A stretch of DNA of 46,479 nucleotides. Source: Nitrospira sp. Lineage in GTDB: Bacteria > Nitrospirota > Nitrospiria > Nitrospirales > Nitrospiraceae. This document shows positions 28,696 through 43,673 of this stretch, piece by piece; the stretch's first letter is position 1, and every line of letters starts with the position of its first letter. Position numbers and translations under genes: made by a program. The DNA lies in assembly GCA_016873395.1 (NCBI GenBank), contig VGXG01000018.1, positions 1 through 46,479 on the forward strand. Direction: 5' to 3'. A model generated the notes under the pieces. That model had not been told where the DNA came from, ran no database searches, and saw nothing but the letters and a program-made list of their open reading frames with translations.

Positions 28696-30603
28696 TCATT
28701 GGATGCGGGCTAACGGCAGGTGCCACGCCTTCGAGGTAGGGGCAAGGGCGGGAATGCAGGCGGGCTCTTGCTCGTTCCCGTATTCCGCTTGCGCGGTCTT
28801 GGATACCTCGGCCCGCGCGTAGTTATAGAGCTCTCCCAGAGCCACAAAACCGTTGTGGTCCCGGTCGGCCGCTCCAGCCAAACCCTTGAGGAGATAGTAC
28901 GTAAACAGGCCGTGCTTCCCCAAGTCGTACCGATGGGCCTCCTGGATCTTGTTGACCCCGAGTAGTTGCACCACCTTTCCGCCTGCCTGATCGGGAGGGA
29001 GCCAGACCGGTCCTTTGACATGCGGCTGGACCGCTGCGGAAGGAGTCATCAGCGCGACATCAAGCAGCAACACCGCCTGCTGAATGGGCAGGCGCGCGAG
29101 CCCCGTCTGGAGCCGGCGAAGGGAGAAGGAGCGGGCCGGCGCTTCCGGGCTGCTTTCATAGGGAAGCAGCATCACCGACCCGGTCGCAGGATCAACCACC
29201 GCACGACCGGAAAAGAAGATCATGACCAGCGAGCCCGGCTCCACCTGTTGCGGCAACCAGTCCTCGAACACTTCGGCCAGATCTTGCTTCAGCGCATGGT
29301 CATCCGTGATCAACTTGATCTGCTTGGCCGGAATGCCACCCGCCGTCCGGAAATAATCGGCCATCACTTTGGCATCACGGGCCGCGTACTTCACACCCGG
29401 CACATCGGCGTTACGGAAAGAGCCGATCCCGATGGCGATCCCGACCGCCTTGCGCCGTTCAAAGCCCCGTACCGGCTGGGGGACCTGATCCACATCCACC
29501 GACAACACCTCCACGTTCTGCAGTTTGGCTGGGCGCAACGCGGCGATGAATTTCTTGGGGCTCGGCTGCCCGGCCGAGGCGGACGGGATCAACACGGACA
29601 CGATCAGCTCCGCCTGCTGGACGGCCGAAACGGGCGGGACTCTCCCCTTAGCTTCCACTTGTTTGGATTCGTCCGGTTGCAGGTCTCCCACGGGGATCTG
29701 TCCGGCAAGCATCTGCACCAGCGAAGGACTTCCGCTCAGGTCCACCACGGCCCCTTTGACGACTTCGCGACTGATATTCTTGACCTCGACCTTGACGATC
29801 ACCTGTTCTCCCCCTTCGAGGACTTGATCCAGGCTTTCGTCCTTCAGCATGGCTCGAAAGGAGAGCACCGGCGAGCCGGCAGAACCAGGAGCCTGCGGCG
29901 GAGCTTGGGACTGTGCCGGAGTCGGGACCGAACCGGAGGAGACAACCGCAGCCCCTCCGGGCCGAGATCCGGCAAGCGGCTTTCGGCTGTCTTCCGGCCG
30001 TGAGCGGGCTGCCTGTCGAATTTTCAACGAATCTCCAAGATTCTTCTTGAACCCCTGCGCCAGTTTGACAGCCGCCTCGTTCGCTATGTCGGTCAGGCCG
30101 CGTACCGCGCACTGATCCCGGTCTGTCTCGACTTTCCCCTTGACTTCGGTCCGCAGCTTCTTCGAAAAGAGCACGTCGCCGCTTGAGTCGACGTAGGCCA
30201 CTGTGCCGCCAAGGATCACCGTGGCGTCGTAACTGTTGGTTTCACGACGCGGGATGTAGAGTTCCAGCTCCTTGAGTCCCAGAGAGATCTGCACCTCCCC
30301 GTCGAACGGTCCGCTTGGGGCGCTGCCGGCTGCGCCGGTATCGGTCTGGACCTTCTCAAAGACCGTCCCGATTTCGCGCGAGAAGGCCGTGGTCAGGCGA
30401 CCACCGATGGGGACCGTCACAGGCTCCTGGCAGCCGTTCGTATAGTCGAGGCCGGCCCTCGTGACGCTGGAGTCCAGCTTCATGTTCACCCGTAAGGGAA
30501 GCCAGTACCCCTGAGGGTCTGACCCGAACCAGGGCCTGGAGGTCATACCGCTGCAACCGGTGAGCCCGGCCAGCAGGAGCAGCAGCCAAGTCAATCGAGC
30601 CAT
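28696..30603 (-). CDS. Lipoprotein with a caspase-like domain lacking the catalytic dyad
   Basis: A 635-residue protein. An N-terminal lipobox (LTGC) marks it as a lipoprotein; ATG at 30603 gives the signal peptide. Residues about 30-205 form an unknown envelope domain, and about 245-360 a CARDB-like beta domain (VKVEVKNISREVVKGAVVDL). Residues about 385-620 are caspase-like: VGIAIGIGSFRNADVPGVKYAARDAKVMADYF, then IFFSGRA where active enzymes have GHG, then LLLDVALM where they have DxCH/S. Both catalytic residues appear replaced. A calcium-loop-like DRDHNGFVALGE follows at about 580-591. It probably acts by binding rather than cutting. Confidence 0.78.
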   Translation of the reverse strand: MARLTWLLLLLAGLTGCSGMTSRPWFGSDPQGYWLPLRVNMKLDSSVTRAGLDYTNGCQEPVTVPIGGRLTTAFSREIGTVFEKVQTDTGAAGSAPSGPFDGEVQISLGLKELELYIPRRETNSYDATVILGGTVAYVDSSGDVLFSKKLRTEVKGKVETDRDQCAVRGLTDIANEAAVKLAQGFKKNLGDSLKIRQAARSRPEDSRKPLAGSRPGGAAVVSSGSVPTPAQSQAPPQAPGSAGSPVLSFRAMLKDESLDQVLEGGEQVIVKVEVKNISREVVKGAVVDLSGSPSLVQMLAGQIPVGDLQPDESKQVEAKGRVPPVSAVQQAELIVSVLIPSASAGQPSPKKFIAALRPAKLQNVEVLSVDVDQVPQPVRGFERRKAVGIAIGIGSFRNADVPGVKYAARDAKVMADYFRTAGGIPAKQIKLITDDHALKQDLAEVFEDWLPQQVEPGSLVMIFFSGRAVVDPATGSVMLLPYESSPEAPARSFSLRRLQTGLARLPIQQAVLLLDVALMTPSAAVQPHVKGPVWLPPDQAGGKVVQLLGVNKIQEAHRYDLGKHGLFTYYLLKGLAGAADRDHNGFVALGELYNYARAEVSKTAQAEYGNEQEPACIPALAPTSKAWHLPLARIQ

Positions 30604-30774
30604 GCGGTGAGTCACAGAGGTCTTAAGGGAAGAGACGGGGGCTGACAAGACAGCCACAGCCCACACAGCCCCGTGTATATACCGGAAACCCTTTCACAAG
30701 GCAACCGGAAAGGTTCGTGCAGGCCTTGGCCCCCCGTCGTTGACAGGGTGTTCTTGCTGGGCTATGGTCTTCTC

Positions 30775-31683
30775 ATGCGAGCCGCCCTGGAATCCGACCA
30801 GTCTGCCAGTGTCCCTCGCCCGCGGGCCTTCCCCGACTGGCGGACCCTGGCCCAGCTCATCAGGCTGTCCAACCAATCCGGCACCCTGCTGCTGGCGCTC
30901 CCGATTTTCTGGGCGTTGCTTCTTGCCTCAGAGGGACACCCCCCCTTCAAGCTGATCGCCGTCTTTCTGGCCGGTTCGTTCCTGATGCGCAGCGCCGGGG
31001 TGGTCATCAACGACGTAGCGGATCGCTCCTTCGACCGCCAAGTGGCGAGAACCAAGTCACGTCCCTTGGCCAGCGGCGCCCTGACCGTCCCTGAGGCTCT
31101 GCTGGCGGCGACGTTCTTGATCCTCCTCGCAGCCGGTCTGCTGGTGTTCGTGAGCCGACTCACTCTGTTGTTGAGCCCTGTCGCATTCCTGCTGGCTGCC
31201 TCCTACCCCTTCTCCAAGCGGGTCCTGCACCTGCCTCAGGCTATGCTCGGGATTTCGTTCGGGTGGGGAGTGGTCATGAGCTGGGCGGCGGTCCGTGATA
31301 GCCTGGACCTCCCCTGCTGGCTCCTCTTCGCCAGCACGGTCCTCTGGGCCCTGGCCTACGATACGATCTACGCGCTCCAGGACCGAGAAGATGACGCACG
31401 AATCGGCGTCAAATCCTCCACCATCCTCTTCGGGCCGCTGACCTGGGCGGCGGTAGCCGTCGCGATGGGCGGGATGCTGACCCTGCTTGGCCTCACCGGC
31501 TGGGTGGCTCGGTTGGGACCAGCGTTTTATGCGACACTGGCTCTGGTTGGCTGGTTTGCCTGGCGGCAAGTCCGACAGTTACGAGGCCCTGTGTCCTCGG
31601 TTCAGGCCTTCACCCTCTTCAAACAGCATATTTGGATCGGGTGGGCCATTCTGGCCGGTATCTGGGCAGGGTTGGTGTGGTAG
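30775..31683 (+). CDS. ubiA: UbiA-family prenyltransferase
   Basis: A 302-residue integral membrane protein with the two aspartate motifs of UbiA enzymes: NDVADRSFDRQVART and YDTIYALQDREDD, which bind the prenyl diphosphate through magnesium. Eight or so hydrophobic segments. The best match by motif is 4-hydroxybenzoate polyprenyltransferase, but other UbiA roles (quinone or heme side chains) remain possible, and no other ubiquinone genes are in the window. ATG 30775 is used; the upstream frame looks non-coding. Divergent from the caspase-like lipoprotein. Confidence 0.85.
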   Translation: MRAALESDQSASVPRPRAFPDWRTLAQLIRLSNQSGTLLLALPIFWALLLASEGHPPFKLIAVFLAGSFLMRSAGVVINDVADRSFDRQVARTKSRPLASGALTVPEALLAATFLILLAAGLLVFVSRLTLLLSPVAFLLAASYPFSKRVLHLPQAMLGISFGWGVVMSWAAVRDSLDLPCWLLFASTVLWALAYDTIYALQDREDDARIGVKSSTILFGPLTWAAVAVAMGGMLTLLGLTGWVARLGPAFYATLALVGWFAWRQVRQLRGPVSSVQAFTLFKQHIWIGWAILAGIWAGLVW

Positions 31684-31696
31684 TCGAACGATTCAA

Positions 31697-32728
31697 TCAC
31701 TTGGCCGAGGCTTTTTCGATCGGCTTCTCAGGCTTGGGCGCCCGCAAGGTGGCCAGGTACCTGGCGATCGCCCTGGCGTCCGGATCGCTGATACCCAGGT
31801 TGGGCATGCGGGTCTCCGGCTTCATGCTCTGCGGATACTTGATCCAGCGGTAGACCCAAGTGCTGTTCAGCCGGAAGCCGGCCCGGTCCAAAGCCGGTCC
31901 GACGATCCCGCCGGCATCCCCCACCTGATGGCAGGCATTGCAGCCGTATTTATTGCTGTAGAGCCGCTTGCCGGTCTCAGCCTGCTTGGCCGCTTCTGCT
32001 TCGGCCATCGTCAGGTCCGGCCGTTGAACCGCGGCGAACTTCGGCTTCGAGGAAAAGTTGGCGAGGGCGGTCTTGGCCGCTTCCAGTTCCTTGGCGACCG
32101 CTGCGTTCGCTTCCTGCTCCTTGGCTGTGGCGGCGTCGTCCACGTCAACGCCTTTCTTCTCCGCCTCATCCTCCGCCTTCTTTTCAGCCGCTTCCAAAGC
32201 TTGCTTGGTTTGATCCGCCTTCTGCTGAGCAGCCTGGAGCTGGTCCTGCAACTCCTTCTTCCGCCCTTCCACGTTGAAGGTCAGGCTCATCCCGTGCAAC
32301 GTCCGAACATAGGCTACGATCGCCCAGATTTCCTCCTCGGAGAGCGTGTACTTGAAGGTCGGCATGGTCGGCACGGCAAACTCGTCGTCCCCGATCTTGT
32401 CGCCCACCTCCGGGGTCGTGTCCTTCATATCGCGCGAGATGGTCCCGTAGATTTCTTCGTCCTTGAAGGTGGACATCTCCCCCTGGTTGGACAGGTCCTT
32501 GGGGCGGGGGTCCGGCATCTGCCCCCAGTTATACCCCTCATTCTGCCGGCCATGCTCGCCGTGACAGTGCATGCAGTAGTGGGCGTAGAGCTTCTGGCCT
32601 TTGGCGACCTGCTCGCTCTGGAACAGCGCGCAGCCGGCCGTCCCCGCCACCGCGCCGACCGCCACCACCGCTCCGGCCAGCAGGAGCTTTCGAATCTTCG
32701 TTGTTGCCCTCTTGCGCGCGGCCGTCAT
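31697..32728 (-). CDS. Diheme cytochrome c with a coiled-coil linker
   Basis: A 343-residue exported protein. Heme c sites are CMHCH (52-56) and CNACH (263-267), each followed by a methionine-containing loop. Between them, residues about 155-225, lies a long Lys/Glu/Ala/Gln-rich coiled coil (EGRKKELQDQLQAAQQKADQTK continuing in the same style). Such a rod between two hemes is unusual. A hydrophobic N-terminal segment (IRKLLLAGAVVAVGAVAGTAGC) anchors it, possibly as a lipoprotein. ATG at 32728 overlaps the stop of the upstream NxrC-like gene (ATGA). It is the last gene of the respiratory cluster. Confidence 0.86.
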   Translation of the reverse strand: MTAARKRATTKIRKLLLAGAVVAVGAVAGTAGCALFQSEQVAKGQKLYAHYCMHCHGEHGRQNEGYNWGQMPDPRPKDLSNQGEMSTFKDEEIYGTISRDMKDTTPEVGDKIGDDEFAVPTMPTFKYTLSEEEIWAIVAYVRTLHGMSLTFNVEGRKKELQDQLQAAQQKADQTKQALEAAEKKAEDEAEKKGVDVDDAATAKEQEANAAVAKELEAAKTALANFSSKPKFAAVQRPDLTMAEAEAAKQAETGKRLYSNKYGCNACHQVGDAGGIVGPALDRAGFRLNSTWVYRWIKYPQSMKPETRMPNLGISDPDARAIARYLATLRAPKPEKPIEKASAK

Positions 32729-33549
32729 GACGAGGACCCTTTCTTCAGCTTCCGGATCACCACGAACTGAAACCCGGCCGCGAGCCCGACGGCCAGCGCA
32801 GCGTAGAGATAGCCGGAATAATCCGGCGGCGGCTCGGCGCGGAAATACCACCAGGAGGAGACCGCCTTCTGCGACCCCTTCTCCTTCAGGTCGCCGCTCG
32901 CGTCCCGCTTTCCATCCCAGATCGCGAACGCGATATTGATAAAGTCCCCCGGCTTGATCTGCGCGTCGTCCTCCGCGTCGGGCGTGGAGAGAGAACGGGT
33001 GAAGATAACCTTCCAGGTGCCGTTCTGATAGACTCCCTTGCCCTTCACATCCTGCTGGTCCTGAGCCTTCAAGGTGCCAAACCCCTTGGCGTTCATGTCC
33101 AGGACCTTGGCGTCCTTGTTCTTCCAGAACCAGATGTTGACCGGCCCTCCCTCCACCTGCCCCATCGGCTGCCCGTGCGCGAAATGGGCCTTCTTGTCTC
33201 CGACCATGAACTCCAAGGCCGCCGCGTCATCGGGATCTTCGGAGGGATCCGCCCACTCCAGAAGGATCGACACTTGCTGGCCGTCATGCAGACCGCGCAC
33301 CTTCACCGACTTGACTGTGACTTCCTGAATCCGAGGCGCCCAGTGAACTTGCGGAGACAGGGGGAACTCCGAAACAGGCGCGCTGCTCCAGGCCGCAGCG
33401 GTCGGATCCTCAGCCGGGAGGTTGTCCTTGACCAGCGCGGCCCTCACCGCCACGCTCTCCTGAGCCCAACCGGCCACAGAAGCCAGGATCACTGCGGAAA
33501 GGGCCACTCCAGCGACCACGCTGACACGCCACGCTCTTGACCGATTCAT
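32725..33549 (-). CDS. NxrC-like (ethylbenzene-dehydrogenase gamma-type) b-heme protein
   Basis: A 274-residue protein with an N-terminal signal peptide, a soluble domain, and a C-terminal membrane helix (YAALAVGLAAGFQFVVI) followed by a basic tail. The central runs QVSILLEWADPSEDP, NIWFWKNKDA and SLSTPDAEDDAQIKPGDFINIAFAIWDGKRDASG match the ethylbenzene dehydrogenase-related heme b domain, the gamma subunit of type II DMSO-reductase enzymes including nitrite oxidoreductase. No NxrA or NxrB is present in the window. It is coupled to the diheme cytochrome, suggesting that it carries electrons between that cytochrome and the membrane. Confidence 0.84.
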   Translation of the reverse strand: MNRSRAWRVSVVAGVALSAVILASVAGWAQESVAVRAALVKDNLPAEDPTAAAWSSAPVSEFPLSPQVHWAPRIQEVTVKSVKVRGLHDGQQVSILLEWADPSEDPDDAAALEFMVGDKKAHFAHGQPMGQVEGGPVNIWFWKNKDAKVLDMNAKGFGTLKAQDQQDVKGKGVYQNGTWKVIFTRSLSTPDAEDDAQIKPGDFINIAFAIWDGKRDASGDLKEKGSQKAVSSWWYFRAEPPPDYSGYLYAALAVGLAAGFQFVVIRKLKKGSSS

Positions 33550-33565
33550 GCCCCTGCCCTCTCTC

Positions 33566-33630
33566 TCTTCACGTCAACTCTTCACGCTTCCGTTTATCTT
33601 CTTCTCACTGCTCACTCTTCACTTCTTCTA
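33566..33630. repeat. Heptad array between cytochrome genes
   Basis: From 33602: TTCTCAC, TGCTCAC, TCTTCAC, TTCTTCT in 7-base phase; a partial arm with TCTTCAC words lies at 33566-33585. It includes the stop codon of the upstream gene (CTA at 33628-33630 on this strand). Confidence 0.55.
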
Positions 33631-34344
33631 TTCCCACGTCCTGGGCTTTTGATGCGCCCCATCGTATTCGCCCATGATGATCTTCCAGATCTGTTCATCC
33701 TTCAACTCGACTTCCCAGCGCGGCATGGCCGACTTCCAGGGCATGCCCTCGATGGGCAATCCGACCCCACCGTTCTTAATTCTCCAGAACACATACGACT
33801 CCTGGAGCTGGGCGATGGTTCCAGGATCCACGAAATTCGCCGGAGGAGGACTGAAGCCCCTGGCGGCCGGCCCCTTTCCGTCAAAATTCCCGTGACAGGG
33901 TGAACAGAAGGCCGCAAAGAGTCCTTTGCCTGCCATCACGTTTTCCGGCGTATTCGGGATCGGGTTCGACAGCCCCACGAACTCGCCCGGTGGGGCCGGG
34001 TGGATCGTCCGGTTTTCCGCCGGAGGCTGGTCGCTCGGCGCCGTGCTGGAATAGGTTTGCCAGCCCACCAGCAGCGGGAACAGAACCAGAACCAGCAGAC
34101 GGGCCGTCTTCATAGCACCAGTCTGCCCCTCCCCGCTCAGGAACCGGGAGATGGGGCCAAAAAACGCCTCGGTGGACTGGCCGCTCAGGGTGGCGAAAAT
34201 CACGATGCCGGTAACAGTCAGAGCCAGGTAGATGAAGATAAGGCTGGCCGGCAGTGGCGCTGTGAACAGGGGCAGAGCCAACTTCAAAAACAGATAGATG
34301 CCGACGGTGAGGATCGCGCCTTTGAGAAGCACTCCGCCTTTCAT
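33628..34344 (-). CDS. Membrane-anchored cytochrome c
   Basis: A 238-residue protein with three hydrophobic N-terminal segments (about residues 5-25, 30-52 and 78-98) and one heme site, CSPCH, at about residue 146. The heme domain has GKGLFAAFCSPCHGNFDGKGP and a later GMPWKSAMPRWEVELKDEQIWKIIM with the ligand methionine. ATG at 34344. It is next to another short cytochrome c in the cluster, so both probably pass electrons around the complex. Confidence 0.88.
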   Translation of the reverse strand: MKGGVLLKGAILTVGIYLFLKLALPLFTAPLPASLIFIYLALTVTGIVIFATLSGQSTEAFFGPISRFLSGEGQTGAMKTARLLVLVLFPLLVGWQTYSSTAPSDQPPAENRTIHPAPPGEFVGLSNPIPNTPENVMAGKGLFAAFCSPCHGNFDGKGPAARGFSPPPANFVDPGTIAQLQESYVFWRIKNGGVGLPIEGMPWKSAMPRWEVELKDEQIWKIIMGEYDGAHQKPRTWE

Positions 34345-34370
34345 AGCTTCTTTCCTTCCCTCAGAAGACC

Positions 34371-34979
34371 TCACTGACCGTGAACGATCGGAATCAGCGC
34401 CGCCACCTTCTGTGGCTGGCCGGCCGGCTGCGTGATCTCGGACGGACTGACCGTGATCGGCTCTCCGCTCATCTGCTGCAAGAACGCAATCACCGAGAGG
34501 ATTTCATTGTTGGAGAGGCCGATCGGGTTTTTATTGATCTGGGGCATCTTGGCCGGATATTCCTTCGGCGGTCCCTCGTGCCGGAAGTCCAGATAAATAT
34601 AGGCCTGGGGCTGCGTCAAGCTCTCGTAAATGAACTCGCGAGTCAGCTTGGCACCGATCCCCTTGAGGTCCGGGCATCGCGCCGATTCGCTGGGGCCGAT
34701 CGAATGGCACAGGGCGCATTGCCCTTTGCTGAAAAAGATCTTTTGGCCGATCGCGGCCATATCTGTCGCAGTCTTAATGCTGGCTACGTCGAATTTTTCT
34801 TCCGCCGGGGGGAGCGAGGCCATTTGGGGCACACCCAACGCAATCAAGGCAAATATCCCCAGCACAATAATGACGAACCCCACCACGCGAAGAAATCGGG
34901 CTTGAATGAATAGAAGGATCACCACCCCGAGGCCAACCACGCAGAGCCCGATCACCTGTAGCAACACAACTTCGCTCAT
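34371..34979 (-). CDS. Membrane-anchored cytochrome c
   Basis: A 202-residue protein with two hydrophobic N-terminal helices (residues about 4-26 and 30-48) and a CALCH heme c site at about residue 88. KMPQINKNPIGLSNNEILSVIAFLQQM carries the likely methionine ligand and the helix after it, typical of class I cytochromes. ATG 34979 has the upstream bd-like gene across a heptad spacer. No catalytic motif; an electron carrier. Confidence 0.88.
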   Translation of the reverse strand: MSEVVLLQVIGLCVVGLGVVILLFIQARFLRVVGFVIIVLGIFALIALGVPQMASLPPAEEKFDVASIKTATDMAAIGQKIFFSKGQCALCHSIGPSESARCPDLKGIGAKLTREFIYESLTQPQAYIYLDFRHEGPPKEYPAKMPQINKNPIGLSNNEILSVIAFLQQMSGEPITVSPSEITQPAGQPQKVAALIPIVHGQ

Positions 34980-34991
34980 AAGTCCTCTCTG

Positions 34992-35063
34992 AAAGCTGAG
35001 AAGCTGTCAGCGATCAGCTTTCAGCTCCGAAGCCGACCGCTGAGAGCTGATGGCTGAAGGCTA
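34992..35063. repeat. Heptad array after the larger bd-like gene
   Basis: In 7-base phase from 35001: AAGCTGT, CAGCGAT, CAGCTTT, CAGCTCC, GAAGCCG, ACCGCTG, AGAGCTG, ATGGCTG, AAGGCTA. The word changes from CAGCTnn to nnnGCTG, giving partly inverted arms. The last unit includes the stop codon of the bd-like gene (CTA at 35061-35063 on this strand). Confidence 0.75.
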
Positions 35064-36917
35064 TTTCCCATCCAACTTCTGCGACCCTCCCGCCATGGCC
35101 GGCACAGCCCCGGCTGGCATCTTGCCCTTCCCGCTCACCTCAGCTGATTTGCCCTTATCCCCCATCGTGGCAACCCAGAAGATGAACGAGACCAGCAGGC
35201 AAAACACAAACGTGTTCAGGGACATAAAGACCGCCGCATAGCCCAACGCCGGCGAGTAGGCGTACTGCGAGGAGTCTCGCATCACGCCGTAGACGTGCCA
35301 GTGCACCCGGGAGGATGACCGCGCATAGCCCATCAGGGTCATCAGCAGAATGACCATCACCGCGTTCATCACCAGTGCATAGCCCGCCCTCGGCGGCATG
35401 CGACCCCACACCATCTCGGTGGTCGTCTTGGCGCTGCGCAACAGCAGGGCCGTGAGCGGTGTGATCGTCAGCATCACGAACAGCACGATCAAGACCTGGG
35501 CTACCGAGAAGTAGTTGATGCGCACGATCGCCGGCACGAAATAGCCCCAGACACCCAAGATGATCACCACGATAGCCGCCAGGCCGAGCACCCCGCCCAT
35601 GACCGCCTTGGCGACTTTGGCCCAGGTGGCTGTCTCTTCCTTGCCAGCGCGCCAATAGATGACAAAGCTCATGAACGTCACCAGGATCATGAGATTGACC
35701 ACGGTCATCTTCGCCGACATCACCCCGAACACCCCGAGGAGAGGATGGTGGGTGCCGCCCATCTTCCTCGCCTCCTCCAGACTAGCCACCAGCGAGTGAG
35801 GGGTCATCCACACCCCCAGGCAGAGGAGCAGGATCACCAGCATCGCCATAATCGGCTTTCGGTACTTGGCTTCGGCCCCCTCGATACGGTGCGTAATCCC
35901 GAGCCAAAAATAATAGTTCGCGCCCAGGAACAACGCGCCGATCAGCACGGCCTGGAGGATGAACAACCAGGAGAGGAATCCGCCCATCAACGTAATCCCC
36001 ATCTGCTGGTTGTACTGGTAGATCTCCCGCATCAGCCAGTAACCGGCGAAGGGCAGCGGCAACATTCCGAAGACGCCGATGAAGTTCCCCACGTAGCCCA
36101 TCCAGTCGTAGTGATCCCGCTCCTCCGCCGTGGTCGCTGACAGATAGCGAATGCCGGCATAGGCGCCGCAGATGAAGCCACCCAGCACGACATTAGCGAT
36201 CAGGCGGTGGATGTTCACCGGCCACCAGGTCGGATTCCATGTGGCGGCCCAGGCTCGAGCCAGGGCCGAGCCTTCCGCAATCACGACCGGGCTGGCTTGG
36301 AACGTGGCCCAGGAGTTTGGGACGATCATGATGAAGAACGCGAACACGTTCAGCAGGAAGCCCAAAAACAGGTGCAGCACCTTCATGCCGCCACCCTGCA
36401 TCGCCTCCCACCCATACCAGTAGAGATACAGCGTCACCGTTTCCAGAAGGAACAAGGCGCAGTACACGACAAAAGAGGGGAAAAAGATATCCGTCAGGTA
36501 CGTCATCAGCTTGGGGTAGAAGCCGATCAGAAGGAATAGTAGAATGCCTCCGAACAGGGCGGTGGTGGCGTAGGCGGAGGTCAGCAGCTTTGTGAACTCC
36601 TTGGCCAGCTTGTCGTACCGTTTTTCGCCGCTCTTCCAGCCGACGATCTCGCAGACCCAGGCGAAAATCGGGACGCCCAGGACAAATCCGGCCAACAGGA
36701 GGTGCTGCTGCGCAACGACCCAGATAATGTTCCGGCTGCCGCCGACCTGAGGAATATCACGATACGCGACGGCCGCCGAGGCGCTCGCTGCATCCTGCGC
36801 CAGCCCCGCCAAGGGGAACCCCAACAGTGCGATCAGCAAGGACAGGCCGGCGATCAACGATCCCTGTTCGCGGAACAGGCTGGCGATCAGTCCCGGATGT
36901 CCGCCGTGGTTCTTCAT
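35061..36917 (-). CDS. Cytochrome bd-like oxidase subunit I homologue
   Basis: A 618-residue membrane protein with about 14 hydrophobic helices and an N-terminal signal-like segment. Histidines that fit the heme ligands of CydA are at H72 (VAQQHLLLAGFVLG) and H237 (NIHRLIANVVLGGF); the spacing of 165 residues is close to that in E. coli CydA (167). The usual GRQPW motif of CydA is not seen. WMTPHSLVASL and RVHWHVYG are further conserved-looking runs. No CydB gene is nearby, so oxygen reduction is not proven; it may instead be a quinone- or cytochrome-reactive heme protein. Confidence 0.8.
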   Translation of the reverse strand: MKNHGGHPGLIASLFREQGSLIAGLSLLIALLGFPLAGLAQDAASASAAVAYRDIPQVGGSRNIIWVVAQQHLLLAGFVLGVPIFAWVCEIVGWKSGEKRYDKLAKEFTKLLTSAYATTALFGGILLFLLIGFYPKLMTYLTDIFFPSFVVYCALFLLETVTLYLYWYGWEAMQGGGMKVLHLFLGFLLNVFAFFIMIVPNSWATFQASPVVIAEGSALARAWAATWNPTWWPVNIHRLIANVVLGGFICGAYAGIRYLSATTAEERDHYDWMGYVGNFIGVFGMLPLPFAGYWLMREIYQYNQQMGITLMGGFLSWLFILQAVLIGALFLGANYYFWLGITHRIEGAEAKYRKPIMAMLVILLLCLGVWMTPHSLVASLEEARKMGGTHHPLLGVFGVMSAKMTVVNLMILVTFMSFVIYWRAGKEETATWAKVAKAVMGGVLGLAAIVVIILGVWGYFVPAIVRINYFSVAQVLIVLFVMLTITPLTALLLRSAKTTTEMVWGRMPPRAGYALVMNAVMVILLMTLMGYARSSSRVHWHVYGVMRDSSQYAYSPALGYAAVFMSLNTFVFCLLVSFIFWVATMGDKGKSAEVSGKGKMPAGAVPAMAGGSQKLDGK

Positions 36918-36979
36918 GGAAATCTCCTCGTATGCCGGCCGGCGCTCGTGTTGAGAGCCTTCCGCCTCTGAGCGGCTAA

Positions 36980-37948
36980 CTACTTTGTCTGTCCCGTGGC
37001 TGCCGGCGCCTTCTCCGCTTTGACGGCTTTCGCGTCAGAGCCGGCCGGTTGGGCCTTGGGGCTCGCGGCTTCTTTTCCCGTCCCCTTGTCTTTTGCCTGA
37101 CCTTGGCCTTTGCCCTTGCCCTTTGCCTGGGCCTTGGCTTCTTCTTGCGCCTTTTCCTCCAAAGCCTGGACCGCCACCTCTGCTTGCGCGATCAGCTTCT
37201 CGGTTTTCTGCAAGACCTCGGCCGGCTTGACGGGAGGCACGACCTTGACCGCCTCTTTTTGATAGAGCTCGTGGGGATGTGGAGTCGTCACCGGCATGAA
37301 GGCCCAGAACAGCAGAACCAGTCCCACACCCGAGGCCGCAAACACGGCTAGCAGGAGGGGCTGGTCGGCCGGCACCCGCATCAAGTCCCACTGCTTGACC
37401 AGGGCCTGGTAGGACTCGTCCGATGCCCTCGCGGCGGCGGTCTGACGGCGAACAATCCATCCGAAGAGAAACAGCCAGCCGAGCACCAGCAGCAGCAGCA
37501 TGACCGCCGAGGGAACGCTCCAGAGCACGAGCTCGACGCTGATCCGCTCCGCCACCGGCAGGCCCTTGAGCAGCTCGATCTCCAGGATCTTCTCCACCAC
37601 CGCCTTGGCCCCGGCCTTGGTGCTGCTCTCGATGACATAGCCGAGCGGCAAATAGACGAGGTTGAGCAGGGCGCCTTGCCACCAGAGCGTGAGACCGAGC
37701 TGATCCGGCGGCTGCAGACGCAGCCGTTCCAGGAACACGGTCCTGGCGCTGACGCTGAGAGCCCAGATGTCGACGGGGATCGAGAGGAGCAGAAGCAACA
37801 CCAGGCCTGCCTCCTCCCAGGGATGCAGCCCGGCCGCCAGCAGGAGCAGGGCGAACACGATTTTTGCGGGAACGGCCGTCCAGAAAGCGGGCCAGGCGAC
37901 AGCCAGGCCCAGCTTGACCGACGACATGCTCGAAGGCTGATCCGTCAT
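36980..37948 (-). CDS. Membrane protein with a low-complexity Lys/Ala tail
   Basis: A 322-residue protein with about four or five hydrophobic segments in residues 10-215 and a C-terminal tail (about 245-322) rich in Lys, Ala, Glu and Gly (AKAQAKGKGKGQGQAKDKGTGK). No known domain; the N-terminal part weakly recalls YIP1-like membrane proteins. It lies between the cytochrome b gene and the larger bd-like gene and may be a structural subunit of the complex. Confidence 0.65.
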   Translation of the reverse strand: MTDQPSSMSSVKLGLAVAWPAFWTAVPAKIVFALLLLAAGLHPWEEAGLVLLLLLSIPVDIWALSVSARTVFLERLRLQPPDQLGLTLWWQGALLNLVYLPLGYVIESSTKAGAKAVVEKILEIELLKGLPVAERISVELVLWSVPSAVMLLLLVLGWLFLFGWIVRRQTAAARASDESYQALVKQWDLMRVPADQPLLLAVFAASGVGLVLLFWAFMPVTTPHPHELYQKEAVKVVPPVKPAEVLQKTEKLIAQAEVAVQALEEKAQEEAKAQAKGKGKGQGQAKDKGTGKEAASPKAQPAGSDAKAVKAEKAPAATGQTK

Positions 37949-37964
37949 ACTCTCGAACGGCGCG

Positions 37965-38027
37965 TTATGAGTTTTGAGTTCTCAGTTTTGAGTTACAAAC
38001 TCACAATTCAAAACTCAAAACTGCTAG
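37965..38027. repeat. Heptad inverted repeat before the membrane-protein gene
   Basis: From 37965: TTATGAG, TTTTGAG, TTCTCAG, TTTTGAG, TTACAAA, CTCACAA, TTCAAAA, CTCAAAA, CTGCTAG. The first four units read nnTTGAG and the last ones read CTCAAAA, so the arms are inverted and nearly perfect. The last unit carries the cytochrome b stop (CTA at 38024-38026 on this strand). Confidence 0.85.
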
Positions 38028-39118
38028 TCCAGGAATTCCCGATTAATGATCGCCGACATGGTAAAAACAAGAATGCCGATCATGACAATCAGCCAGCCCA
38101 CCAATGCGATGGGCCGCTTGAAAATATTGCGCTCGGGATTACGATCGATAAACGGCAGCGCGGCCAGCAGCAACAGGAAGGCATTCGGAATAGCGACCCC
38201 GGCCAGGAACTGCCCAAATTCCCCGGCGAAGATCTTCAAGCGCAACATTTGAAACAGAAACAGGAAGTACCACTCCGGCTCCGGATGATAATCGCCCGGG
38301 TCCGGCGTCGCCTCCTCCAGCAGCACCACCGGCTCGATAAAGGCCAGGCTGCAGATCGTGAGGAACACGGCCGCCATCGCCACCATGTCCTTCCAGACCT
38401 GTCTCGGAAAGAAATAGTCGGTCTTGGCCTTGAGCTCCTCCGAGCTCCCGCGGAACGGCCCGGCCGGACCGGCTTTTCTAAAGAAGAATAGATGCAGACC
38501 GGCCAAGCCCATGAGGGCGGCAGGCAGAATCATGACATGGATCACGAAGAACCGACTCAGTGTCATCTGGCCCGGCGTGGGTCCGCCCTTCAGAAACCTG
38601 GCGATAAAGTCGCCGACGATCGGGGTCTTGTCCATGATTTCCACGCCGACCGTGGTCGCCCAGTAGGCACGTTGGTCCCACGGGAGGAGGTACCCGGTAA
38701 AGCCGAACGCCATCACGAGGCCGAACAACGCAAGCCCGACCAACCAGATCATCTCACGCGGCTTTTTATAAGCACCCCACAGGAAGACTTGCGACATGTG
38801 CGCGAACACCATAACTACCATCGCGGAGGAGCCCCAGAAGTGGTAGCTTAGCAGGAACCAGCCGTAGTCCACCTCGTGGATGATGTACTGGGTGCTGGCG
38901 TAGGCATGGTCGGCGCTCGGCACGTAGTAGAACATCAGCAGGATGCCGGTCACGGCTTGCATGATGAAGATAAACAACAGGACCGAGCCGAACACGTAGG
39001 CCCAACGCGAGCCGCCGGGCACCGGCTCGTTGAGCATCTTGGCCTGAAGCGTCTTCAGGCCGACCCGCTCGTCGACGAAGGCGATGATCTTTTCAAGGAC
39101 GTTGGGCTGTCCGTTCAT
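38024..39118 (-). CDS. Cytochrome b of a bc/b6f-type complex
   Basis: A 364-residue fused cytochrome b. The four heme histidines are H93 and H107 (13 residues between) and H194 and H209 (14 between); the 14-residue spacing of the second pair is the b6 pattern. A quinol-site PEWY motif is present (PEPEWYFLFLFQML). The region after it corresponds to subunit IV, so b6 and IV parts are joined in one protein. The GTG/ATG region at 39118 overlaps the Rieske stop (TGATG). Confidence 0.92.
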   Translation of the reverse strand: MNGQPNVLEKIIAFVDERVGLKTLQAKMLNEPVPGGSRWAYVFGSVLLFIFIMQAVTGILLMFYYVPSADHAYASTQYIIHEVDYGWFLLSYHFWGSSAMVVMVFAHMSQVFLWGAYKKPREMIWLVGLALFGLVMAFGFTGYLLPWDQRAYWATTVGVEIMDKTPIVGDFIARFLKGGPTPGQMTLSRFFVIHVMILPAALMGLAGLHLFFFRKAGPAGPFRGSSEELKAKTDYFFPRQVWKDMVAMAAVFLTICSLAFIEPVVLLEEATPDPGDYHPEPEWYFLFLFQMLRLKIFAGEFGQFLAGVAIPNAFLLLLAALPFIDRNPERNIFKRPIALVGWLIVMIGILVFTMSAIINREFLD

Positions 39119-40053
39119 CACACGATCCGAATCTGCGCTTTGGTTCCTGCCTTGTACTCGATGTCGATGATCTCGATGTCGCCACTGGCAGCCACGCGGA
39201 TCGGGACAGGGTCCAGCGGACGAGGGGCCGGCCCGTCCAGCACTGTGCCGCTCGCGTCGTAGATGCTCAGGTGGCAGGGACAGAGGAAGATCTGCCGGCC
39301 CAGCTTGGGCACGTTCCGCCATTTGTAGCCGCACCCGAGGTGGGGGCACTTTCCCGAATAGGCCACATAGGGAACATCACGCTTGTTGGTCCAGACCACG
39401 TGCCCCGCGTGATCCTTGAAGTCCATGTCTTTTCCTTTATAGACAGCCTCGAGGACGGCGGGAGATGCCTTCAGGACCCAGACGTTCTTGTCGACCTCGG
39501 CCTCCGGCATGAAAGCCTCCTTCACCTTCTTCTTATACTTGAACTGGACGCCGACGTCCTCGGTCTTGATCCTGCTCGCGTTGCCGATCCTGAGCCATCG
39601 GTTGTCAAAGGGCGCGTACATCGGCTTCATGAGGTACCGCAGGACGGGAAAGGCCAGCGGCATGACCATGAGCGCCCCGATTGCGTGCGTGAAGTTGGTG
39701 AAGAAGGTCCGGCGCTTGACGTCACGCTCCAATTCTGGCAACGGGACCAGCACCTCGCCCGGCTCGACGTGGAGATGATCCTCCAGGTGCGCGATCTCGA
39801 CTTCCTTGGTGGTGACGTACTCGTCACGTTTCAAGAGCGGGAACCGCTCCAGGTCGCCCGAGGCGGCCCGGAGCTGCACGGTATCGTCCGTCACCGCCTG
39901 GACCTGGGCCATCGGGACCTGGCGCCCCGGCCCCCCGTTTCCCCCGACGATGATGTGGCTCACCTCGCGCGAGAGCGGATCGAGGATGACTTTGGTGACT
40001 TCGCCGACCTCCCGGTCGGTGCACCGCACTTTCGATTTGAGCTTGGGCTGCAC
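39118..40053 (-). CDS. Rieske iron-sulfur protein fused to a PRC-barrel domain
   Basis: A 311-residue protein in three parts. Residues 1-100 form a PRC-barrel-like domain (KSKVRCTDREVGEVTKVILDP). One transmembrane helix is at about 119-140. Residues about 150-300 are the Rieske domain with both cluster motifs: C236-P-H238-L-G-C241 and C258-P-C260-H261. The start is GTG at 40053 with GGAAGAG upstream. A PRC-barrel in front of Rieske is not the usual bc1 layout and could dock another subunit on the cytoplasmic side. It precedes cytochrome b, as expected. Confidence 0.9.
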   Translation of the reverse strand: MQPKLKSKVRCTDREVGEVTKVILDPLSREVSHIIVGGNGGPGRQVPMAQVQAVTDDTVQLRAASGDLERFPLLKRDEYVTTKEVEIAHLEDHLHVEPGEVLVPLPELERDVKRRTFFTNFTHAIGALMVMPLAFPVLRYLMKPMYAPFDNRWLRIGNASRIKTEDVGVQFKYKKKVKEAFMPEAEVDKNVWVLKASPAVLEAVYKGKDMDFKDHAGHVVWTNKRDVPYVAYSGKCPHLGCGYKWRNVPKLGRQIFLCPCHLSIYDASGTVLDGPAPRPLDPVPIRVAASGDIEIIDIEYKAGTKAQIRIV

Positions 40054-40069
40054 TGGCTCTTCCTTTTAA

Positions 40070-40097
40070 CTTAACTCTTCACTCTTTCCCGTTCACT
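40070..40097. repeat. Short heptad array between cytochrome c and Rieske genes
   Basis: From 40070: CTTAACT, CTTCACT, CTTTCCC, GTTCACT, in 7-base phase. The last unit contains the stop codon of the cytochrome c gene (TCA at 40093-40095 on this strand). One arm only. Confidence 0.5.
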
Positions 40098-40908
40098 TCT
40101 TTTTAATCGGCTTGGGCGTATTGACCGCCGTATTCTTCAGCGAGGAGAGAAACGCCACGAGGGCATCCACTTCTTTCTCCTCCATCAACTCTTTGTACTT
40201 ATTCGGCATCTTCTTCTTTTCGTATTCCTTCTCGAAGCCCTCAGCCATCCAGGTCTGCGGGTCCATGACCTTTTGCTTGAGTTCATCCGGCTTCATCAAA
40301 TTGCCGATGTTATCCATCTCGGGGCCCCGCTTCTTTCCCCCCTCGCCGAACAGCTTGTGGCAGTTGTAACATTCCTGCAGGTTCCACTGCTCCTTCCCCA
40401 AGGCGACGAGGTCCCCTCCGGCCGGGGCGCCGGCCGCTTTGGCCCCATCTGCCCCCGCCGGCGCCTCCGCCACCCCGCCGACGGTCTGTAGACGCGCCAT
40501 GATGGCATCGGCTTTCTCGGACAAGGCCTTGGCGCGGGCCAGCAACTCCTCTGCCTTCCCCTGCTCCGATGCCGCCCGCTTGGCCTTCAACAGCTTTTCA
40601 ATCTTCCCCTTTTCATCCTCCGGGTCATACTGGGGCAGAAACGTCGCGCCGCCGATGTAGGCGCCGGAGAGCACGGCGTAGAAGGCGACCAACGCCACGA
40701 TGGCCTTGAGCCCGCCGATCGGCTTGATCGAGGGGGCATCCAATAGGATGAAAACCGCCGCCCCCAAAATGGCGTAGCTGAAAAACATCACCTGAAACAC
40801 CGGCGGAAAGGTCAGGGCCTTGGCCACACCCACCAGGACGCCTCCTACGATGAGTCCGATGATTCCCTTTTTGATGATATTTTTGATCAAGCTCGGCTGT
40901 TCGGCCAT
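40093..40908 (-). CDS. Membrane-anchored cytochrome c
   Basis: A 271-residue protein with about three hydrophobic helices (residues 12-35, 38-55 and 65-88), a coiled-coil-like stretch (about 98-145), an Ala/Gly-rich linker and a CYNCH heme c site near residue 182. The methionine ligand is probably in KKMPNKYKELMEEKEV. ATG 40908 with GAGGT upstream. It lies just before the Rieske and cytochrome b genes and may take the place of cytochrome c1. Confidence 0.87.
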   Translation of the reverse strand: MAEQPSLIKNIIKKGIIGLIVGGVLVGVAKALTFPPVFQVMFFSYAILGAAVFILLDAPSIKPIGGLKAIVALVAFYAVLSGAYIGGATFLPQYDPEDEKGKIEKLLKAKRAASEQGKAEELLARAKALSEKADAIMARLQTVGGVAEAPAGADGAKAAGAPAGGDLVALGKEQWNLQECYNCHKLFGEGGKKRGPEMDNIGNLMKPDELKQKVMDPQTWMAEGFEKEYEKKKMPNKYKELMEEKEVDALVAFLSSLKNTAVNTPKPIKKK

Positions 40909-40920
40909 ATGTACCTCAAT

Positions 40921-41045
40921 GATGAATGCAGAATGCTAAAGGTCGTCGGTCATCAGTTGTCAGTTCTGGAAAATTCAGAAACTGAGAACTGTAAACTGAG
41001 AACTGTTCACTCAAAGTCGTGCCGCGTTCACCGTTCGGTTACTCT
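40921..41045. repeat. Longest heptad array, between the smaller bd-like and cytochrome c genes
   Basis: Units in 7-base phase include GATGAAT, GCAGAAT, GTCATCA, GTTGTCA, GTTCTGG, then (from 40980) AACTGAG, AACTGTA, AACTGAG, AACTGTT, CACTCAA and, near the end, GTTCACC and GTTCGGT. The TTGTCAG/TCAGTTC words and the CTGAGAACTG words are complementary, so two arms can pair. The last unit contains the stop of the bd-like gene (TTA at 41039-41041 on this strand). Confidence 0.8.
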
Positions 41046-42757
41046 GCCCCGGCCGGAATCGGCTTGGCCTCCGGCGCATGGGCCTTGCCCTCGGATACCC
41101 GCAGGGTCACCACGATCGCAAAGCTCACGATGATGTAGAACGCCAGCGTGATGGCCGTGATCCACCAGGCCGAATACGACAGCGTAGGCGTAAACGATTC
41201 GGCGGTGAAATCGGGCATCAGGTTATAGGTGTGGAAATACTTCCGCAGCAGCGACCGGACCGCCCCCATAAGGCCCATCGTCCAGATCGCGCTGAAGGCC
41301 AGAAAGATCAGCACAAACTGGGAGACAAAGTCGATCTTCCCCCAGACGATCGTCCCCTGCCGGATGGCGCGGTTGTAAAGGATGTAGTTCACAACCGTCA
41401 CAAAGACCAGCGTAAACGCCGCGCTGTTCTTGGCCGGCATCAGGGCCAGGAAACCCCAGTCGGACGGCAGCTCCAGATGCTCGGTAGCCAACGCTTGGGT
41501 CGCGACGAACCCGTGCGGCGTCATCCAGATCGCGTTTCCGACCACGACCATCAAGAACCCGACCTTGATGAAGGTACGGGATGAGACGGTGATGCGGCCG
41601 AGCGGCGGAATGACCTTGCCCAGAATCACAGGGGCCAGCACCAGCGGCAAAAGAACCCCCAGCGATGTGGGATCGGGAACCGGGAAGATCGTCCAAGCAT
41701 AAGTCATGACGAAGGGCAGGGCGATCATCACCAGCATGGTCAGGGCCGACATGCGGACCCGCTCAACCCCTTCTATACGCTTCATGCTGAGCCAGATGTA
41801 ATAGTTGCTGGCCAGGAAGATCAGCCCAACCATGGCCCCTTGCATCTCAAAGAACATCGAGAGCTGGTCCGCCATCATGTAGGGACAGATCGACGCGTCG
41901 TAGTCGCAGAGCTCGTAGGCCAGGAGATAGCCCATGAAGGGGAGGAAGAGCAGCGCGCCCACGCCGATGAGGTTGCCGACGAACCCCATCCAGTCGTAGT
42001 AGGACCGCTCGTTGTCGTTCTTGGCCCCCATGTACATGTAGGCGGCGATCAGGCCGGTGATGAACCCACCGAACGTGACGTTCCCCACCAGCCGATGCAG
42101 GTTCATCGGCATCCAACTATAGTTGAACACCTTCTCCCAGAGCGACGCAGTCTGGATAAAATCAACGAGCGAAATGCCTTCGACTGCCTTGGAAGGTGTG
42201 TTCATAAATGAGGTCGGCCCGTCGATGACGAACAGCGTGATGGTGCCGATCAGGTTCAGCAGGACTCCCAGCGCAATGTGGCGCCCTTTCTTCTCCCCCT
42301 TCCAGGAGTCCCAGGTGTAGAAGTAGAGGTAGAGGACGATGGTCTCCCCGATGAACAGGAGCGGGTAGATCACCGCGAAGATGAGGAAGAAGTGATTGAT
42401 CAGCCAGGTGGTGAATTGCGCGTAGGTGGCCAGCAGGACGAAGATGAACAATCCGCCGGTCAAGGCAGTCATGCTGTAGAGGATGACGGTGACCTTCATG
42501 ACCTCCTTGGCCAGCCGGTCATAACGGGGGTCCTGCTTCCGGTAGCCCAGCCATTCCGAGATGACGACAAAAATCGGAGCCCCCAGGATGAACGCGGCGA
42601 ACAGAATGTGGAGTTGGGCGACAATCCACACGGCCATCCTGTTGCCGGTATAGGGGAACTCCGTAGCAGGCGGGTTCGGAACCTGGGCATAGGCCGCCGT
42701 GCCGCACAGGGCCATGAGGCCAAGCAGTACCAGGAGACTTCGCTGCCATGTTTTCAT
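41039..42757 (-). CDS. Cytochrome bd-like oxidase subunit I homologue, second copy
   Basis: A 572-residue membrane protein with a signal peptide (cut near AYAQ) and about 14 hydrophobic helices. It is a paralogue of the 618-residue protein: both have an early His (H50, IVAQLHILFAAF), NLHRLVGNVTFGGF (H221; spacing 171), SNYYIWLSMKRIEGVE and WMTPHGFVATQ. The copies lack each other's end regions, so they have different roles. No CydB or GRQPW motif. It is coupled to the cytochrome c lipoprotein upstream and a cytochrome c downstream. Confidence 0.8.
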   Translation of the reverse strand: MKTWQRSLLVLLGLMALCGTAAYAQVPNPPATEFPYTGNRMAVWIVAQLHILFAAFILGAPIFVVISEWLGYRKQDPRYDRLAKEVMKVTVILYSMTALTGGLFIFVLLATYAQFTTWLINHFFLIFAVIYPLLFIGETIVLYLYFYTWDSWKGEKKGRHIALGVLLNLIGTITLFVIDGPTSFMNTPSKAVEGISLVDFIQTASLWEKVFNYSWMPMNLHRLVGNVTFGGFITGLIAAYMYMGAKNDNERSYYDWMGFVGNLIGVGALLFLPFMGYLLAYELCDYDASICPYMMADQLSMFFEMQGAMVGLIFLASNYYIWLSMKRIEGVERVRMSALTMLVMIALPFVMTYAWTIFPVPDPTSLGVLLPLVLAPVILGKVIPPLGRITVSSRTFIKVGFLMVVVGNAIWMTPHGFVATQALATEHLELPSDWGFLALMPAKNSAAFTLVFVTVVNYILYNRAIRQGTIVWGKIDFVSQFVLIFLAFSAIWTMGLMGAVRSLLRKYFHTYNLMPDFTAESFTPTLSYSAWWITAITLAFYIIVSFAIVVTLRVSEGKAHAPEAKPIPAGAE

Positions 42758-42793
42758 GTTGTCTCGCCGCCCCTCCTCCGGAATCCGAATGAC

Positions 42794-43420
42794 CTACTTC
42801 TTGCTGCCGCCAGCCGGAGCCTTCGGCGCACCGCCCGCAGGCGTTCCGCCAGCCGGCGCCGCAGGAGCGGTCGCTCCATCCTTAGCCCCCTCAGCCGGCG
42901 CTGCCGGCGCGGCTCCAGCCGCGGCCGAAGCCGCGCTGCCAACCGGCACCCAGGCATTCTTGGCAACATCCCACTCCTGCCCCTTGAGCCCGAAGGTACG
43001 CTCATAGGCCATCACCTTCCACCGGTCTTCTTCAGGAAGCTTGCTCTTCCAGGGTTTCATCTTGGTGTTGGGCACGCCTTCTGAGATCCGCCAGAACCAG
43101 ACCGAGTCCGAGTAGAGCTTCATCCGCTCGGTCACGCGGAAGTCGCGGGCCCCGGCCTTGACCGGCTTTCCGTCCTTGCCGTGACAGCTGGCACAGTTGA
43201 CATCAATATTTTTGGCGCCGATGAAAATCTGACGGCCTTCCTCGATAATCTTCTCGTCCGCCCACCAACCGGCCGGCATGTGCTTGTCCGCATACTCAGC
43301 CGGCGGAGGCGGCGGCGCCACGATCGGCCCTTCACCCCCCTCACCGCAACCAGCGATCGTCAGACCGACGCCTGCTACCCCGACAAAGAAGGCTGCTTTC
43401 ATCCAATCCATGCGCTTCAT
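42794..43420 (-). CDS. Cytochrome c lipoprotein
   Basis: A 208-residue lipoprotein (lipobox IAGC) with a single heme site CASCH at residues 76-80 and SVWFWRISEGVPNTKMKPWKSKLPEEDRWKVMAYE, which carries the methionine ligand. The C-terminal third is a low-complexity Ala/Pro/Gly-rich tail. First gene of the respiratory cluster. ATG 43420 has GGGGGAG upstream. It may be the entry point for electrons from a soluble cytochrome. Confidence 0.9.
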   Translation of the reverse strand: MKRMDWMKAAFFVGVAGVGLTIAGCGEGGEGPIVAPPPPPAEYADKHMPAGWWADEKIIEEGRQIFIGAKNIDVNCASCHGKDGKPVKAGARDFRVTERMKLYSDSVWFWRISEGVPNTKMKPWKSKLPEEDRWKVMAYERTFGLKGQEWDVAKNAWVPVGSAASAAAGAAPAAPAEGAKDGATAPAAPAGGTPAGGAPKAPAGGSKK

Positions 43421-43535: not shown

Positions 43536-43583
43536 AACAAATAAAGACGCTTTTGCTCAGGCTTTTTGACCTGAGCAAAAGCG
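43536..43583 (-). terminator. Intrinsic terminator
   Basis: On the minus strand, CGCTTTTGCTCAGG (43583-43570) and CCTGAGCAAAAGCG (43561-43548) form a perfect 14-base-pair stem with an 8-base loop, followed by the T-rich TTTATTTGTTTT. It ends the transcript of the gene at 43674-44216 and separates it from the respiratory cluster. Confidence 0.85.
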
Positions 43584-43673
43584 CCATCGCCCAGACCACC
43601 AGGGTTTTCTGCGGCCTGCCTCGATTCGACACAGAACCGGACAATCCGAGAACCCAGACACCTTTCAAGAGCG

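Follow-up and report, generated by a model that had tools for sequence, protein, structure and literature searches.

A conserved respiratory gene cluster of Nitrospira, predicted to combine a cytochrome c oxidase with complex III, appears to consist of two separable modules

In nitrite-oxidizing Nitrospira, a cluster of eleven respiratory genes most likely provides a route by which cytochrome c passes electrons to oxygen and, through complex III, also to quinone. We analyzed this cluster in a contig of 46,479 nucleotides from a Nitrospira sp. assembly (the window). Our best reading, to which we assign a probability of about 0.7, is that the cluster encodes a cytochrome c oxidase together with complex III. 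Membrane-bound cytochromes c would donate the electrons with which two cytochrome bd-like proteins, of the types called OR-N1 and OR-N2, reduce O2, and the Rieske/cytochrome b pair would connect that cytochrome c pool to quinone. Complex III would run downhill from quinol or, when the donor is nitrite, uphill by means of the proton motive force. The cytochromes c and the heme b protein alt-NxrC would link periplasmic electron donors, NXR among them, to the oxidase and to complex III. We infer O2 reduction by the OR-N proteins, the direction of electron flow and any physical complex from the observations that follow.

The cluster occupies positions 31697-43420 of the minus strand, where eleven collinear and co-directional open reading frames are separated by intergenic gaps of -4 to 130 bp (Table 1). 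A first-pass annotation of the window had listed these eleven genes and assigned them to families, and our Pfam and NCBIfam searches bear out both the set and the assignments. Cytochrome c families match five of the proteins, whose six CxxCH sites make four of them monoheme and one diheme. The 322-amino-acid membrane protein has no credible Pfam match; it is retained in Nitrospirales, and outside the order it is short or different. The start of the cytochrome b gene was corrected to the ATG at 39118. For the diheme cytochrome c, the start is most likely the ATG at 32728 (343 amino acids), which overlaps the stop of the NxrC gene, and not the GTG that would yield 384 amino acids.

A predicted intrinsic terminator upstream of the unit marks the boundary of the cluster on that side. 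In a search for internal promoters, sigma-70 matches within the cluster equaled the expectation from shuffled sequence, and none was on the minus strand. The longer intergenic gaps (40909-41038, 37949-38023 and 34980-35060) are filled by the short repeated words CTCAAAACT, CTCAGTTT and AGCTGAAAGCTGA. Several neighboring genes are also recognizable. Downstream of the cluster and convergent with it is a UbiA prenyltransferase gene (30673-31683, plus strand; PF01040, 1.4e-58). A gene at 28696-30666 (minus strand) encodes a 656-amino-acid lipoprotein-like protein that has neither a Pfam nor an NCBIfam match and whose C-terminal half resembles the caspase type by eye. Also near the cluster is a hopanoid gene, for adenosyl-hopene transferase HpnH (45012-46025, minus strand; TIGR03470, 557 bits; cut-off 225).

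Table 1. Features of the respiratory cluster, in predicted transcription order.
Feature	Module	Position	Strand	Evidence
Intrinsic-terminator-like hairpin upstream of the unit		43546..43585	-	17-pair stem, then T-rich tail
Monoheme cytochrome c lipoprotein, 208 aa	A	42794..43420	-	PF13442 2.6e-8; lipobox-like AGC at C25; one CxxCH
OR-N1-type CydA-like protein, 572 aa (bd-like_1 equivalent)	A	41039..42757	-	PF01654 (Cyt_bd_oxida_I) 6.9e-23
Membrane-anchored monoheme cytochrome c, 271 aa	A	40093..40908	-	PF00034 3e-11; hydrophobic N-terminal segments; C-terminal CYNCH
Rieske protein with N-terminal PRC-barrel-like domain, 311 aa	A	39118..40053	-	PF00355 4.5e-8
b6-like cytochrome b fused to C-terminal domain, 364 aa	A	38024..39118	-	PF00033 5.9e-50; PF00032 5.3e-9
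Membrane protein, no family, 322 aa		36980..37948	-	About 4 hydrophobic segments
OR-N2-type CydA-like protein, 618 aa (bd-like_2 equivalent)	B	35061..36917	-	PF01654 1.5e-12
Membrane-anchored monoheme cytochrome c, 202 aa	B	34371..34979	-	PF00034 1.2e-7
Membrane cytochrome c, 248 aa	B	33628..34374	-	PF13442 1.7e-8; CSPCH
NxrC-like protein (DMSO reductase type II gamma-like, alt_NxrC_1), C-terminal TM	B	32725..33549	-	PF09459 (EB_dh) 2e-22
Diheme cytochrome c, 343 aa		31697..32728	-	PF00034 8e-20; two CxxCH

The cluster is not new: judging from gene order and protein similarity, we identify it with the published CIII_1/bd-like_1/bd-like_2/alt_nxrC_1 region of Nitrospira. For N. moscoviensis, Mundinger et al. 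2019 (PMC6606698) described CIII_1, bd-like_1, bd-like_2, alt_nxrC_1 and cytochromes c, proposed that the region encodes a III/IV supercomplex, and reported high transcription of it during nitrite oxidation; the expression data for the cluster are from this one species. All eleven genes are found, with order and orientation unchanged, in N. moscoviensis, with 43-88% identity per protein and no difference in gene content, and in N. defluvii, whose counterpart contains the NIDE0901-type oxidase (loci L140 and L175). Because the eleven-gene order recurs in most of the twenty relatives inspected and is complete in half of the 80 named loci (40, with many of the remainder ending at contig ends), we conclude that the cluster is not a product of chance. 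Homologues in relatives were found in every case, 61 of 61 for the 618-amino-acid protein and 117 of 117 for the 572-amino-acid protein, weaker matches being paralogues.

Names were assigned from later Nitrospirales papers and from synteny, by which the 572-amino-acid protein matches the OR-N1 type and the 618-amino-acid protein the OR-N2 type. The latter has an 85% orthologue in N. moscoviensis that likewise precedes two cytochrome c genes and alt-NxrC. Since two cytochrome c genes stand between bd-like_2 and alt_nxrC_1 in the published region (PMC6606698), the 618-amino-acid protein corresponds to bd-like_2, a placement that also fits its being of the NIDE0901 type and OR-N2. According to surveys of Nitrospirales (PMC12342949) and Nitrospinota (PMC10839748), OR-N1 and OR-N2 likely form a CydAA' terminal oxidase. 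As far as these two surveys cite Murali et al. 2021, the pair belongs, within the bd superfamily, to a branch that depends on cytochrome c. Related arrangements include the terminal oxidase complexes TO_1 to TO_4 described for Ca. Manganitrophaceae (PMC9040806), which also contain bd-like proteins with cytochromes and in some cases complex III. In one relative (G072; locus L101, 10040-18308), a module A equivalent is followed by an OR-N2 that carries a fused cytochrome c domain, then by two MrpD-like antiporter subunits (PF00361), so that the MrpD-like pair lies inside the module B equivalent, adjoining module A. TO_2 has such a pair as well (PMC9040806), whereas the window cluster lacks MrpD-like genes. 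A rearranged cluster was seen in another Nitrospirales genome (G012, 84% complete; L061): its OR-N2 is more divergent (67%), an additional OR-N copy is present, and it has two NxrC-like genes; NxrA was looked for in that genome and not found.

Both bd-like proteins retain a pair of ligand-type histidines, which the first-pass annotation had placed 165-171 residues apart, as in CydA. These are correctly H50/H221 in the 572-amino-acid protein (spacing 171) and H72/H237 in the 618-amino-acid protein (165), compared with H40/H206 (166) in the canonical CydA of the same genome. The pairs are equivalents of E. coli H19/H186, and they are invariant in 41 OR-N1 and 19 OR-N2 rows, respectively. Also as annotated, GRQPW is absent from both proteins and no CydB is encoded in the cluster. 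A single-chain AF2 model of the 572-amino-acid protein (pLDDT 84.8, pTM 0.84) was searched with Foldseek, and each of the ten PDB matches at E≤0.001 is a subunit I of a bd oxidase, with TM-scores of 0.48-0.64 normalized by target length. On this model, OR-N1 is predicted to have the fold of bd subunit I (CydA). Extra helices occupy the position of the canonical Q-loop, between the helices after the second heme histidine and the helix with M440; such replacement of the Q-loop was reported earlier for bd-like oxidases (PMC3578206). The model of the 618-amino-acid protein reached a mean pLDDT of 53.7 with 19 close homologues, and its Foldseek matches were set aside. Profile-profile comparison indicates homology of OR-N1 and OR-N2 over most of their length (E 9e-101). 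In the tree, the 572-amino-acid protein falls in the N1 clade (support 100), and the two proteins of the window are placed separately.

Seven residues are invariant in the 41 OR-N1 rows, which span several phyla (H50, H160, H221, M440, K443, R501 and H509), and their counterparts are invariant in the 19 OR-N2 rows (H72, H182, H237, M400, K403, R533 and H541). OR-N2 has additional invariant histidines at H269, H374, H390, H391 and H539. With hhalign and a PDB profile search, only the N-terminal half aligns with canonical CydA, and the C-terminal columns of the MAFFT alignment are unsure. Therefore, equivalences to M393 and E445 of E. coli CydA are given by helix order only. By this measure, the invariant M440/M400, the candidate counterpart of the heme b558 ligand M393, stands where the helix corresponding in order to CydA TM7 begins, in a region of unreliable sequence alignment. 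E445, the ligand of high-spin heme b595, appears not to be conserved in OR-N proteins; the invariant H509/H541 lies nearby and may be a heme ligand. Because E445 appears to be lost and an invariant histidine lies near, the chemistry of the OR-N active site is uncertain. Overall, the bd-like proteins share with canonical CydAB the fold, the H19- and H186-equivalent histidines and their spacing, but they lack the Q-loop, GRQPW and CydB and show no conserved equivalent of E445. With the OR-N1/OR-N2 CydAA' type they have in common the CydA fold, the N-terminal heme histidines, the missing quinol-site features and the adjacent cytochrome c genes.

Complex III is predicted to be intact from its sequence signatures. 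The Rieske motifs CPHLGC/CPCH (CxH...CxxH, with the disulfide cysteines) are invariant in 20 rows, and H94/H108, H195/H210 and PEWY of cytochrome b are conserved in 62 rows. Cytochrome b has a histidine spacing of 15 residues in helix D, which is typical of b6, but in contrast to b6f-type proteins with heme c_n it has no counterpart of the b6 cysteine C35 close to the Qn site, its sole cysteine being C257. The PRC-barrel-like domain of the Rieske protein precedes the membrane helix and is kept across Nitrospiria orthologues. Its PRC match (5.6e-4) is just under the Pfam cut-off, and the match recurs at E≤0.01 in 7 of 20 orthologues. Among the PDB matches listed for the Rieske protein, none falls in the PRC-like domain, and we found no mention of a PRC-barrel in the open-licence Nitrospira/Rieske literature. 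The NxrC-like protein exceeds the cut-off for EB_dh. By two measures it does not qualify as an NXR gamma subunit: it scores 114 bits for TIGR03477, under the cut-off of 169.85, and it has orthologues in genomes with no detectable NxrA.

The case for O2 reduction comes chiefly from a survey of 98 Nitrospirales genomes that are at least 95% complete, which were searched for heme-copper oxidases (PF00115) and CydB (PF02322) at E≤0.001. PF00115 was found in 33 genomes and PF02322 in 55, and 32 have neither. In the Nitrospirales genomes searched, many PF00115 matches are weak, with E values between 1e-6 and 1e-12 and frames of roughly 430-510 amino acids, unlike the strong oxidase matches. In the 32 genomes with neither family, OR-N proteins are the only visible candidate O2 reductases. 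Two single-contig genomes with no match to either family (G041 and G053) carry NxrA and both bd-like proteins; since no other oxidase is detectable there, OR-N proteins must reduce O2 in such genomes unless an unknown enzyme exists, for which absence of HMM matches leaves room. The source genome (2.34 Mb, 97.8% complete) itself has no PF00115 match. It encodes one canonical CydAB, its sole CydB being next to the canonical CydA on contig C7, as well as four bd-like proteins, two in the cluster and two on contig C43. Its NxrA is 1148 amino acids long, with 84-89% identical copies in G041, G053 and one further genome (G006). In the open-licence literature, we found no report in which O2 reduction by an OR-N protein was measured.

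The first-pass annotation had suggested that the cluster could encode one complex. A conserved co-directional unit agrees with this, but the single-complex part is put in doubt by genomes in which the genes separate (G066, G039 and G045). The cluster thus appears to comprise two modules: A joins OR-N1 to complex III, and B groups OR-N2, cytochromes c and alt-NxrC. In G066, OR-N1 and complex III occur without OR-N2 (L099), and OR-N2, cytochromes and an NxrC-like gene are on another contig (L195). In a family represented by G039 and G045 (L193 and L194), OR-N1 and complex III are followed by cytochromes only, and neither a 618-type OR-N2 nor NxrA was found. The reverse case, OR-N2-type genes accompanied by cytochromes and NxrC but not by complex III, occurs at three loci (L107, L108 and L110). 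Outside class Nitrospiria, OR-N1 adjoins molybdoenzymes (L105, L106 and L114-L116), and in G252, which has heme-copper oxidases, OR-N1 is the only bd-type protein. Given its occurrence without OR-N2 and beside molybdoenzymes, OR-N1 does not have to act as a terminal oxidase in every case. All complex-III-linked OR-N1 proteins form one 13-row clade (support 100), which suggests that OR-N1 was joined with complex III a single time. The absences carry some risk, since a number of the key genomes are draft MAGs. In a Chloroflexota MAG, a radical SAM gene of heme-biosynthesis type (L180, 13744-15096; NirJ2/AhbD-like, under cut-off) lies close to a homologue of OR-N1; similar radical-SAM-like openings were seen at L107, L108 and L173.

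These distributions raise the possibility, which we regard as tentative, that one operon encodes two machines: a complex III in which OR-N1 is an integral component, and a terminal oxidase with its donor chain formed by module B, with no obligate OR-N1/OR-N2 heterodimer. Each module is found without the other, the sole bd-type protein of G252 is an OR-N1, and the OR-N1 sequences linked to complex III group in a single clade. However, most Nitrospiria have the two modules side by side in a constant order, the G039/G045 family keeps another OR-N2-like paralogue (bd-like_3 type) that might be the partner of OR-N1, and gene order, here partly from draft MAGs, does not prove assembly. A more specific proposal seems to us rather doubtful: that OR-N1, instead of pairing with OR-N2 in a CydAA', is a dedicated partner to an unusual complex III, in an assembly of PRC-Rieske, cytochrome b, OR-N1 and cytochrome c that exchanges electrons among quinone, cytochrome c and possibly O2, and that this assembly formed once at the base of Nitrospiria, before the acquisition of NXR, its OR-N1 deriving from a type that serves molybdoenzymes in other settings. 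We found no earlier statement of the module separation in the open-licence literature.

It is unlikely that the whole set forms one cytochrome c:quinone complex for reverse electron flow, in which the bd-like proteins would be quinone-linked and would not reduce O2. The bd-like genes do adjoin complex III, and in anammox organisms bd-like proteins are conserved beside NXR genes, with a quinone-linked role previously proposed for bd-like_3 (PMC3578206, PMC6606698); some OR-N1 genes also accompany molybdoenzymes that have no other obvious membrane anchor (L105, L106 and L114-L116). The first-pass annotation had likewise suggested cytochrome c-quinone exchange, possibly in reverse. The evidence goes against this for the bd-like proteins: helices replace the Q-loop, GRQPW is missing, the cluster is present where NxrA is undetectable, and without OR-N oxidase activity the 32 near-complete genomes would have no recognizable O2 reductase. 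We therefore favor the oxidase reading, in which complex III could still be run in reverse in a nitrite oxidizer. Least probable is that the bd-like proteins mainly detoxify NO or peroxide beside complex III: nitrite oxidizers meet NO and canonical bd oxidases have NO and peroxide side activities, but the near-universal conservation of the bd-like proteins, the high transcription in N. moscoviensis and the genomes with no alternative oxidase argue otherwise.

Full or nearly full copies of the cluster, alt-NxrC included, occur in three genomes of class Nitrospiria outside Nitrospirales (L097, L098 and L100), and NxrA was not detected in these genomes (G061, G064 and G069; 97-99% complete), apart from a trivial match in G061. 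An association of the cluster specifically with nitrite oxidation is thus not supported, and neither module appears specific to that metabolism. Because published reconstructions place the acquisition of NXR early in Nitrospirales (PMC10203281), and the cluster is also present outside the order without NxrA, it probably predates NXR.

The cluster itself had been published; the module split and the occurrence without NxrA go beyond the open-licence literature. Nitrospira is a dominant nitrite oxidizer, and its terminal oxidase is still called uncharacterized in that literature. The cluster bears on the route by which electrons from nitrite reach both O2 and NAD. Its modularity and its presence in genomes without detectable NxrA weaken two ideas, an obligate OR-N1/OR-N2 heterodimer and a role of alt-NxrC as the anchor of NXR, and make both testable.
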